From Paenibacillus sp. FSL W8-0186 (GTDB lineage: Bacteria; Bacillota; Bacilli; Paenibacillales; Paenibacillaceae), in assembly GCF_037969765.1 (NCBI RefSeq), contig NZ_CP150207.1:2845001-2909000 (forward strand): 64,000 nt of DNA. The letters are read 5' to 3'. Positions 1,748-4,839 of the stretch are shown one piece after another. A model generated the notes under the pieces. The model was not told where the DNA came from. It ran no database searches and worked only from the letters and a program-made list of their open reading frames with translations. Each line of letters begins with the position of its first letter. The stretch's first letter is position 1. The translations under genes and the position numbers were made by a program.

Positions 1748-1777
1748 TTGACTACAACAAATTGTGCGTGGTAATAT
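1748..1777 (+). promoter_or_regulatory. sigma-A-type promoter upstream of the bpsA leader
   Basis: TTGACT (1748-1753) and TAATAT (1772-1777) are separated by 18 nt. The predicted start near 1784 coincides with the first base of the outer stem of the structured region that follows. No other convincing promoter was found between here and bpsA. Confidence 0.55.
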
Positions 1778-1783
1778 AAATTA

Positions 1784-2017
1784 ATCATTACTAAGGAGAA
1801 ATGTTGATGTCGGCGGTAGTTCTTAACTAACCAAATTCCATACTTGAAGTTTTCAACAGTCCCAAAAACCAATTGCTGAAATAGCAAGGTTTATTTCGTT
1901 ATGGACACCATGAGGACTTCGGAATTAGTTAAGAACAACGGATAATGATCAAGGCCTTAGTGCTGCCTATTGTTATGCACCCACAATCCGTGCTGTTTTC
2001 AGCTCGGATTTTTTTGT
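1784..2017 (+). ncRNA. candidate structured RNA or attenuator leader upstream of bpsA
   Basis: The region contains nested complementary segments: ATCATTA (1784-1790) with TAATGAT (1943-1949); GTTCTTAACTAA (1819-1830) with TTAGTTAAGAAC (1925-1936), a perfect 12-bp match; GAAGT (1846-1850) with ACTTC (1916-1920); GTCC (1859-1862) with GGAC (1903-1906); and an apical hairpin AAACC-TTGCT/AGCAA-GGTTT (1866-1892). A promoter precedes it and an intrinsic terminator (1985-2017) closes it. No convincing ORF lies inside. The long irregular hairpin resembles the general shape of 6S-like RNAs, but no known family was recognised. It may be a free small RNA or a 5' leader controlling bpsA. Confidence 0.45.
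1985..2017 (+). terminator. intrinsic terminator 1 before bpsA
   Basis: The stem AATCCGtGCT / AGCtCGGATT is followed by a long T run (TTTTTTTG). It ends the candidate structured RNA. Confidence 0.75.
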
Positions 2018-2047
2018 TTTTTTGCGGTGTTTATTTAGGCAGATTCC

Positions 2048-2092
2048 AAAAAGGGCAGGGATGACGTATGTTCATTCCTGCCCTTTTTTATT
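2048..2092 (+). terminator. intrinsic terminator 2 immediately upstream of bpsA
   Basis: AAAAAGGGCAGG...ATGA pairs with TCAT.CCTGCCCTTTTT, followed by TTATTTT. It lies only about 40 nt before the bpsA start codon. An ATG at 2068 falls inside this stem, which argues against that ATG as the bpsA start. Confidence 0.8.
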
Positions 2093-2130
2093 TTCATTAT
2101 GGGGAAATTACAGTTTATAGGAGGGTTTGT

Positions 2131-3333
2131 ATGAAGACGTATATCGAACAAGTAAGTGAGCATATTCTACTGCAAGAAGGAACACAGGTGATCGAGCAGC
2201 TCTGTTACTTGAACCCGGGAATTTCAACAAAAGAATTGGCACGAAAAACGCTGCTTCCGACCCCTGTCGCTGCGGCTATTAAACGGGAATTTATTAAAGC
2301 AGGGGCGCTCGTCCAGGATCGCGGTGTCCGCTGCACAACTGACGGACTTGCATGGATTGAGCAGGAATGGGGATTCCGTGGCTTGGATCAATCCCTTTAT
2401 CACGATTTGTTTAATGAGATAAGATGGATTGAAAGTCTAAAAGATATGTTACCTATTCTGGAGGAAATATTATCACAGCGGCCGTCTGTAGATGTTCAGA
2501 TCGATCAGTCCAAATGCACACCCGAAACGAGCTTACGCCGAGCTATTCTTTGTTTGAAGCACCATGCGTTGATCGGAAAGAAAATTTTATGCGTAGGCGA
2601 TGATGACCTGGTAAGTGTGTCTATTGGTTTGCTGCTACAGCGGTTGTTTCCGGATATCGGGCACAGCGTTGCGCATGTGGATGTTCTGGATATTGACGAA
2701 AGATTCCTAAAATATATTGAATCGATTGCGGAGGAGTGGGGATTACCAATTACGTGCCACCGACTTGATTTGAGGGAGCCACTACCGGAAAACCTTCACA
2801 AGCAGTTTGATTGTTTCTTTACGGATCCTCCGTATACTCTTCAGGGAATGGGTCTTTTCGTATCACGCGGTATACAAGCTTTGAAAAGGGAGAAGGGGCT
2901 GCCGATATTTCTATCTTTTGCCCATAAATCGCCTGCCTTTATGCTTGCCATGCAGCGGGAATTTGTCCGCATGGGGCTGACGGTCAACGCTAATTTTCCG
3001 CAATTCAACGTCTACGAGGGAGCAGAAATGATTGCCAACCGGAGCCAAATGTTTATTCTGCGGACAACGGATCAGACGAAACCCGAATATATGGAGAAAT
3101 TCACGGATGCCTTGTATACAGGCGAGGTGAAACAAACACTGCGTACTTACCGCTGCAAACAATGCTCCAGAGATGTGTATGTCGGTATCAACGAGGAGTT
3201 TGCGACCATTGAGCAGTTAAAGAATGAAGGATGCACGGGCTGCAGCCATGATACATTTGAACTGGTGGCCAAACAACGGGTTTCTTCAGAAAGGAATGAC
3301 AAGGCTGATTATAAGGCAGGTCGAAGTTCGTGA
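2131..3333 (+). CDS. bpsA: N4-bis(aminopropyl)spermidine synthase (branched-chain polyamine synthase)
   Basis: The 400-aa protein resembles BpsA, which transfers aminopropyl groups from decarboxylated SAM to spermidine to make N4-branched polyamines. Visible parts are an N-terminal winged-helix-like segment (about residues 15-70), a Rossmann methyltransferase-like core with GDDD (157-160) and DPPY (232-235, then TLQGMG), and a C-terminal Cys4 zinc-ribbon (Cys342, 345, 368, 371). The GDDD and DPPYT signatures are diagnostic for this family. The start at 2131 is chosen because GGAGG precedes it, and because the upstream in-frame ATG (2068) lies within a terminator stem. The gene is monocistronic and appears to be read from the leader promoter at 1748, through two terminators. 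Confidence 0.88.
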   Translation: MKTYIEQVSEHILLQEGTQVIEQLCYLNPGISTKELARKTLLPTPVAAAIKREFIKAGALVQDRGVRCTTDGLAWIEQEWGFRGLDQSLYHDLFNEIRWIESLKDMLPILEEILSQRPSVDVQIDQSKCTPETSLRRAILCLKHHALIGKKILCVGDDDLVSVSIGLLLQRLFPDIGHSVAHVDVLDIDERFLKYIESIAEEWGLPITCHRLDLREPLPENLHKQFDCFFTDPPYTLQGMGLFVSRGIQALKREKGLPIFLSFAHKSPAFMLAMQREFVRMGLTVNANFPQFNVYEGAEMIANRSQMFILRTTDQTKPEYMEKFTDALYTGEVKQTLRTYRCKQCSRDVYVGINEEFATIEQLKNEGCTGCSHDTFELVAKQRVSSERNDKADYKAGRSS

Positions 3334-3796: not shown

Positions 3797-4839
3797 ATGG
3801 TTTTCACAATTGCAATTACCATTGTGGCTATTTTTGCAATATGGGGTGCAGTAGCCCCTGACCAGTTGGCAAATACCGCTAATGTCGCATACAATTTCTC
3901 CATCAACAATTTCGGCTGGTTTTATTTGCTGGCTACTCTGTTTTTCTTGATCTTCACTTTTTATTTAGCATTCAGCAGGTTTGGCAGCATCCGTTTGGGA
4001 GACGACGACGATGAACCGGAATATTCCACATTATCTTGGCTGTCGATGCTATTTAGCGCAGGGATGGGAATTGGGCTTGTATTCTGGGGAGTCGCTGAAC
4101 CGTTGTCTCACTATTTATCTCCGCCTGAGGGCGTAGAGGGAGGTACGACAGAAGCAGCGAGGATCTCCATGCGTTATTCTTTTTTTCATTGGGGACTGCA
4201 TCCATGGGCTATTTATACAATCATCGGATTGACGCTTGCTTACTTCCAGTTTCGCAAAGGTTATAAAGGCTTAATCAGTTCAACCTTTATCCCTTTATTG
4301 GGGAAACGGCTGGCTGCCGGCTGGCTGGGAAAGGTAATCGATATTTTAGCCGTTATTGCCACTATTTTTGGGGTGGCTACTTCGCTTGGACTCGGGGCTC
4401 TTCAGATTAACGGAGGATTGCGTTATTTATTCGGGGTTCCTAATACGGCAGCATCTCAGATTGTTATATATTAGCATTTATTGCTACGCTCCTTATTATG
4501 ACCTTTTTTATCACTTCTGCCGATTCGGCTACCTTTGTGCTGGGCATGCTGACCTCAGACGGCAAGCTCAATCCCAGCGCAAGAGTGAAATTAACCTGGG
4601 GAATTCTGCAATCCGCCATAGCTGTAGTTCTGCTGATTAGCGGCGGATTAAGCGGCCTTCAAACTGCCTCCATTGTAGCAGCCTTACCTTTTGCAATTGT
4701 CCTGATCGGGATGTGTTTCTCACTGCTCAAAGCTCTTCAGGCTGAGGACAAAGAGCGCCGTCATCGAGAAAAACGTCAACGCCAAAAGCTGAAACGATTG
4801 CTCGAAGAACAAGAAGAATTCAAGATTCCTATGAAATAA
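3797..4839 (+). pseudogene. BCCT-family betaine/choline transporter, internally deleted
   Basis: The first 225 codons (3797-4474) match the N-terminal half of a BCCT Na+/osmolyte symporter (OpuD/BetL type). Several membrane helices and the family stretch SAGMGIGLVFWGVAEP are visible. The frame then stops. The C-terminal part resumes in another frame (clearly from about 4470 to 4839) with the conserved [15 protein letters not shown] segment and a charged tail. Family members are about 500 aa or longer, so roughly 170 codons of the middle are missing and the junction is out of frame. The remnant cannot encode a functional 12-helix carrier. Confidence 0.88.

Follow-up and report, generated by a model that had tools for sequence, protein, structure and literature searches.

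How can the bpsA-like gene of Paenibacillus sp. FSL W8-0186 be expressed when two terminators stand in front of it? The gene lies in a window (the whole stretch of DNA analysed, 64,000 nucleotides, positions 2845001-2909000 of the 5.66-Mb genome) which starts with the end of a 23S rRNA gene and a 5S rRNA gene. A preliminary description of this DNA had proposed that bpsA is expressed by read-through of both terminators (attenuation), perhaps under a leader responding to a polyamine or another metabolite, or from a weak unseen promoter, with an independent small RNA in the first part of the region as the alternative. It had named paired segments kept in relatives as support and an Rfam match to an unrelated family as evidence to the contrary. 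The comparison of leaders and computed folding suggest that the leader is probably a ribosome-mediated transcription attenuator containing a seven-codon upstream open reading frame (uORF), MSAVVLN*. The features of the locus are collected in Table 1.

Table 1. Features of the leader and its target gene in the window
Feature	Position	Strand	Basis or remark
Sigma-A-type promoter, TTGACT-18-TAATAT, extended -10 (TG)	1748-1777	+	Predicted start ~1784
Shine-Dalgarno region of the uORF (GGAG 1795-1798)	1789-1798	+	Sequence, fold
uORF ATG TCG GCG GTA GTT CTT AAC TAA, MSAVVLN*	1807-1830	+	Sequence; overlooked in the preliminary description
P1 5' arm, GTTCTTAACTAA (final three codons of the uORF and its stop)	1819-1830	+	Fold
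P1 3' arm, TTAGTTAAGAAC, pairing perfectly with GTTCTTAACTAA	1925-1936	+	Fold
Antiterminator strand ACGGAT, complementary to ATCCGT 1986-1991	1938-1943	+	Partner exchange, folding
P3, outer stem around terminator 1 (about 1962-1982 with 2026-2042)	1962-2042	+	Fold, partner exchange
Terminator 1, hairpin 1985-2010 and T run	1985-2017	+	Sequence, fold -13.3 kcal/mol
Terminator 2	2048-2092	+	Sequence; simple scan (2048-2088 and T run)
bpsA-like gene, 400 aa	2131-3333	+	BpsA_C PF01861 E 1.2e-45; solved BpsA 5xnc E 2.2e-24

The sigma-A promoter, the nested hairpin behind it, both terminators and the lack of a promoter between terminator 2 and bpsA had all been described before, and each of these was borne out. 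The promoter agrees with the consensus at 9 of 12 positions. Counted by themselves, sites of this quality do not exceed the chance expectation for the region (11 observed against 9.8 expected in a simple scan). The best promoter-like site located -80 to -12 from the uORF start reached at least 9/12 in 81% of 113 non-redundant leaders, compared with 11% of shuffled copies, so that the promoter is conserved upstream of the uORF. The fold of 1780-2020 reached -66.1 kcal/mol (z -3.9) and was equalled by none of 200 shuffles, and that of 1780-2130 had a z of -5.4, equalled by none of 100. The simple scan listed terminator 2; terminator 1 was missing from its list although the hairpin folds at the energy given in Table 1. 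Terminator-like sites in the region overall numbered 7, with 5.4 expected from the same scan, and at least two terminator-like hairpins follow downstream, by loose criteria, in 103 of 120 non-redundant leaders. Between 2092 and 2131, no promoter-like site was listed by the scan. Terminator 2 also contains an ATG (2068) whose open frame continues into bpsA in the same frame (2068-3333), and the longest frame likewise begins 5' of the probable gene start in the loci of several relatives; a second uORF in this frame was considered and is not claimed.

The GGAG of the uORF stands at normal spacing from its ATG (1807), and the end of the reading frame doubles as one arm of the hairpin P1. Over 125 leaders, the 12 pairs of the P1 arms were 93% complementary, compared with 25-49% when the arms were slid against each other; the pairing is thus kept in relatives, as the preliminary description had anticipated for a functional leader. 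Double changes were found among these leaders at pair 5 (three leaders), pair 6 (two) and pair 10 (one), whereby those at pairs 5 and 6 come from related genomes and may represent one event each. They were visible only once divergent members were included: RNAalifold on 26 close sequences returned only an invariant 10-pair stem, with compensatory change absent. Three leaders (L218, L219 and L228) have CTG as the Leu codon and AAT or AAC as the Asn codon, with the 3' arm altered to match. The apical part of P1 is variable between leaders. Moreover, TACTAAGG at 1789-1796, in the Shine-Dalgarno region of the uORF, is able to pair with CCTTAGTG at 1955-1962.

At the peptide level, the uORF has the consensus M-[S/L/T/I/K]-[V/A/G/E]-x-V-L-N-stop. 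An in-frame start codon with a Shine-Dalgarno sequence, neither of which the search pattern required, was present in 106 of the 107 assigned loci among the inverted-repeat matches listed. The pattern that gathered 113 of the 125 leaders fixed most bases of the V-L-N codons, so the conservation of V-L-N in these 113 is partly by construction, and the unbiased sample is the set of 11 whose sequences were read in front of MutS2-like genes; V-L is kept in all 11. Four leaders (L080, L224, L220 and L221) have Ser or Arg in place of the Asn. In L083, the uORF stop is lost (MSAIVLNEAGIA*), yet part of the stem still pairs. No known arrest motif was recognised in the uORF peptides, and the R/K-x-R/K motif of the macrolide leader peptide type was absent from those compared. 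Since V-L-N is what the uORF conserves, the leader might sense the slow reading of Val, Leu or Asn codons, as in classical amino-acid attenuators or a sensor of general translation speed. This is unlikely, since each residue has a single codon and no codon forms a run, the Asn is exchanged in the four leaders just named, and the genes downstream are other than those of amino-acid biosynthesis.

The same genome carries a second, diverged copy of the leader at 956229, with a promoter-like TTGACT, the uORF MLVAVLN*, the two arms and terminators 1 and 2 in the same order; G969, a genome of the same species, likewise has two leader copies. A DNA search returned matches in 30 of 59 genomes, including its own, and among 30 loci of relatives in which the uORF was read, 26 stand before MutS2-like and 4 before BpsA-like genes. 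The covariance model R1, built from 26 sequences, matched in 227 of 325 genomes of the family (17 of 19 genera), in 67 of 398 genomes of the class (15 of 145 genera) and in 10 of 398 genomes of the phylum, two of these outside the class; because R1 was trained on near relatives, the distribution at the class and phylum levels is probably underestimated. Neither match from outside the class was counted as a leader, the one in G533 (L245) having no such uORF and the one in G492 (L243) no arm pattern that could be found.

A bare inverted-repeat scan of the genome collection yielded at least 118 stretches, of which 93 stand before MutS2-like genes and 14 before BpsA-like genes, while 11 fall in neither group. 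These 11 mostly lie too near the end of the available sequence to judge and include one MutS2-like fragment (L119) and one gene resembling aminoglycoside phosphotransferases (APH-like, L180). The inverted repeat occurs in Paenibacillus, Brevibacillus, Cohnella, Neobacillus, Rossellomorea, Mesobacillus, Peribacillus, Halobacillus, Pontibacillus and other genera, and also in Clostridium sp. OS1-26, Petroclostridium sp. X23 and a Tissierellales bin; the viral contigs scanned with it held no copy. At gathering scores, Rfam had no family for the leader in the window, in the second copy or at six further loci, and an assignment to an unrelated family, which would have counted against a leader, was absent. 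The relaxed threshold gave matches far below gathering scores, mostly on terminator 2, and these were rejected. The sole Rfam match was a ZMP/ZTP riboswitch in L161 (2996-3078, + strand), about 150 nt from the leader (2741-2849) and on the opposite strand.

The gene downstream of the second copy encodes a 684-aa MutS2-like protein (TIGR01069, E 7.8e-174) in which an Smr match is absent, the only Smr domain of the genome being located in a different, 790-aa open frame. In this paralogue, the MutS2 core and the ABC ATPase are clear, and a KOW/SH3-like segment appears only below threshold; no Smr domain was matched in the five MutS2-like proteins tested. Among the paralogues listed from 398 class genomes with at least 40% identity, a cut chosen after viewing a match list that reaches down to E ~1e-101, the leader preceded all 69 of 69, with four ordinary long MutS2 frames at 40% (G072, G382, G078 and G063) excluded by frame length. 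R1 accounted for 58 of these, counted if located 0-800 nt upstream on the same strand, and reading for the other 11 (L218-L228), whose uORFs end in V-L-N (eight), V-L-R (two) or V-L-S (one) and whose P1 arms pair in the fold of each leader. The leader was absent from nine more distant MutS2-like genes (36-38% identity, L229-L237) that were inspected. They form a separate MutS2-like group of about 640 aa without such a uORF, and seven of the nine (L230-L234, L236 and L237) have a short terminator-like hairpin starting with AGCTG upstream. In a PADLOC search, one MutS2-like protein (L004 3562-5616) weakly matched mads_8 (E 4e-7, ~70 residues) and the BpsA-like protein of the window (2131-3333) weakly matched mads_2 (E 6.6e-8, ~70 residues), both probably through a shared fold. 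According to PMC10897456, MutS2 of B. subtilis splits stalled ribosomes; its loss makes cells hypersensitive to chloramphenicol, tetracycline and erythromycin, and the ATPase is the part that matters most.

The target in the window is a putative relative of the branched-chain polyamine synthase. Its GDDDL and DPP segments align with those of 5xnc, in which DPP is followed by E instead of the Y present here. BpsA-like genes are present in 8 of the 59 genomes, including its own; five have the leader, and none was found within the upstream DNA examined for the other three. R1 matches not standing before the listed MutS2-like genes numbered 24, and the 18 inspected precede 16 BpsA-like genes, one GNAT and one APH-like gene. 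The rare targets are thus a GNAT acetyltransferase (L068, in G340) and APH-like phosphotransferases (L080, in G272, and L180), the assignment of L080 resting on a PF01636 match just above the cut-off. Further downstream in the window, at 3797-4839, lies a broken gene for a BCCT (glycine betaine) transporter, of which two frames match positions 1-222 and 402-482 of the 483-position profile, so that ~180 profile positions are missing.

A BpsA-like target could point to a polyamine sensor, in which spermidine or a related polyamine (or its lack) would stall the ribosome on the uORF and adjust bpsA; among eukaryotes, one uORF peptide stalls at its stop with polyamines. Such a sensor is quite unlikely, and a polyamine or metabolite leader specific to bpsA is unsupported, because the same leader mostly precedes MutS2-like genes (the 93 against 14 given above) and its conserved part is a uORF forming an arm of the switch. 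It also precedes GNAT and APH-like genes, and the BpsA-like genes themselves occur in just the 8 of 59 genomes.

For tests of the switch, 7 of the 120 non-redundant leaders were removed (reverse reading of the palindrome, or terminator not found), leaving 113; the first terminator lies 20-110 nt after the 3' arm in 108 of them, and 90 have both terminators by the criteria used. By partner exchange, the region after the 3' arm paired with the 5' half of terminator 1 at -8.16 versus -7.15 kcal/mol (sd 0.18, 0/10000, n=108), and the uORF start region with the stretch after the 3' arm at -8.94 versus -7.55 kcal/mol (sd 0.20, 0/10000, n=113). For the uORF Shine-Dalgarno region and the stretch 8-46 nt after the 3' arm, z was -6.8, as opposed to +1.0 and +1.5 for two control regions (n=113). 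These antiterminator, uORF-start and Shine-Dalgarno pairings are support and not proof, because the null ignores relatedness and is broad, unrelated combinations reaching up to z +4.5. When an antiterminator was sought for terminator 2, the stretch following the 3' arm reached z -3.8 and terminator 1, by its 5' half, z -4.3; both are inside the range of unrelated combinations, and no antiterminator is claimed there. Terminator 2 is conserved, but partner exchange revealed no convincing way to bypass it. At the level of single bases, 54 leaders have a CGG/CCG core on both sides, and the adjoining base is complementary in 42 of them and not in 12. Among the remaining 54 leaders, 13 pair CATAGC with GCTATG or GCTGTG, and many show just 4-5 complementary bases.

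Transcripts ending midway through terminator 1 were also folded in silico with the uORF kept unpaired to mimic a bound ribosome; in the control, a block of equal length in the P1 loop was kept unpaired instead. The expected number of antiterminator pairs over 108 leaders was 1.7 in the free RNA, 6.6 with the uORF held open and 1.7 in the control, and at least three such pairs were expected in 24, 92 and 22 of the 108 leaders, respectively. Holding the uORF open raised the number in 96 of 108 leaders and lowered it in 7. The leader of the window went from 1.0 to 6.3 expected pairs. The second copy of the genome (L002) went from 8.3 to 6.1, against the model.

The strongest covarying pairing of the leader is P3, the flanks of terminator 1 pairing mutually at z -16.8 (partner exchange, 90 leaders). 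P3 also encloses the T run of terminator 1, and its formation is possible only after read-through. A structure conserved this strongly could belong to an RNA that binds a ligand or a protein (a riboswitch or an autoregulatory site) with no need for uORF translation. That reading is very unlikely in view of the start codon, frame and Shine-Dalgarno sequence kept in the uORF, the synonymous codon changes with compensation in the opposite arm, the variable apex of P1 and the missing Rfam match.

The uORF, P1, the antiterminator strand and terminator 1 are mutually exclusive because they overlap. On sequence evidence, a translatable uORF lies between the promoter and the terminator, and in the computed folds its arm of P1 excludes the antiterminator, as in known uORF attenuators; the antiterminator and terminator 1 share a strand, this last feature being weak or absent in part of the leaders. 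P1 can be extended by pairing of the uORF start codon and Shine-Dalgarno region with the sequence directly after the 3' arm, which can alternatively pair with the 5' arm of terminator 1. In the proposed attenuator, the ribosome would by default complete the uORF and leave, whereupon P1 would close and lock away both the antiterminator strand and the ribosome-binding site of the uORF; terminator 1 would then form and transcription would stop. A ribosome stalled on the uORF would keep P1 open, so that the strand after the 3' arm could pair with terminator 1 and RNA polymerase would read on, turning on genes that help cells to cope with blocked translation. The second copy, which precedes an unrelated gene in the same genome, supports this mechanism. 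Of the earlier interpretation, attenuation by conditional read-through is retained, with the uORF, P1, the antiterminator and terminator 1 both conserved and overlapping, whereas a bpsA-specific polyamine or metabolite leader and the independent small RNA are not supported. A small RNA ending at terminator 1, with bpsA expressed from a weak unseen promoter, would suit a region that has its own promoter and terminator and would leave a short RNA upon premature termination, but it is extremely improbable for a leader tied to specific downstream genes (all 69 listed MutS2-like paralogues), and the scan listed no promoter-like site from terminator 2 to the gene.

Stalling on the uORF would most likely be triggered by an inhibitor of the ribosome or by translation stress in general, since the commonest target is a paralogue of the ribosome-splitting factor MutS2 and the rare ones are GNAT and APH-like genes. 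A translation inhibitor would be the likeliest inducer because of the role of MutS2 in B. subtilis and the precedents of hflXr and msrD. BpsA-like proteins would then presumably act in translation stress as well, via branched polyamines or another reaction.

Several known systems resemble this arrangement. The msrD leader peptide MsrDL (MYLIFM) is a hydrophobic peptide of six residues that stalls at the stop codon; that attenuator has another peptide, an ABC-F target and a known inducer (cladinose macrolides), whereas here the targets are MutS2-like and BpsA-like and the stall is predicted (PMC10314930). The hflXr leader rli80 of Listeria likewise attenuates through a uORF, and the gene behind it is a resistance paralogue of a ribosome-splitting factor, but its uORF has 14 aa with an RLR motif and its target belongs to the HflX family, as opposed to 7 aa, V-L-N and the MutS2 family (PMC6310831). 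In tlrB (yxjB) of B. subtilis, a short uORF and attenuation are likewise combined with a hairpin that also prevents the uORF from being translated again; unlike the present leader, it has an RYR motif, a 23S rRNA methyltransferase as the target and translation attenuation in addition (PMC6851288). The ARE-ABCF uORFs of VmlR (MIN), VmlR2 (MK[L/Q]), CplR (MR[I/M]) and LsaA (MAGN) are also short attenuators of ribosome-protection genes in Gram-positives, but have 3-4 aa without V-L-N and govern a different gene family (PMC10201436). Among the titles and abstract openings listed from the open full-text literature, none describes the leader, and MutS is absent from the main texts of structured-RNA surveys and a premature-terminator survey. 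Regulation of this kind is known, whereas this class of uORF, the genes it controls and its wide distribution appear to be new within the literature searched. The leader in the window is one copy of a widespread and apparently undescribed RNA switch with a seven-codon mini-gene.

A broader view can be offered tentatively. In Bacilli and some Clostridia, one uORF class (M-x-x-x-V-L-N-stop) may control an inducible regulon against translation stress, in which the Smr-less MutS2 would be a drug-induced ribosome splitter (the MutS2 counterpart of HflXr), the BpsA-like enzyme would protect translation via branched polyamines or RNA modification, and the occasional GNAT or APH-like enzyme may modify the inducer. 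If this is true, the uORF would lead to an arrest motif new among nascent peptides and perhaps to a common translation inhibitor of soil. A single ribosome-sensing switch would tie a widespread, unexplained MutS2 paralogue to a BpsA relative, which makes the functions of both directly testable. Should the inducer be an antibiotic, the MutS2 family would, alongside HflXr, provide an inducible form of resistance that works by splitting ribosomes.
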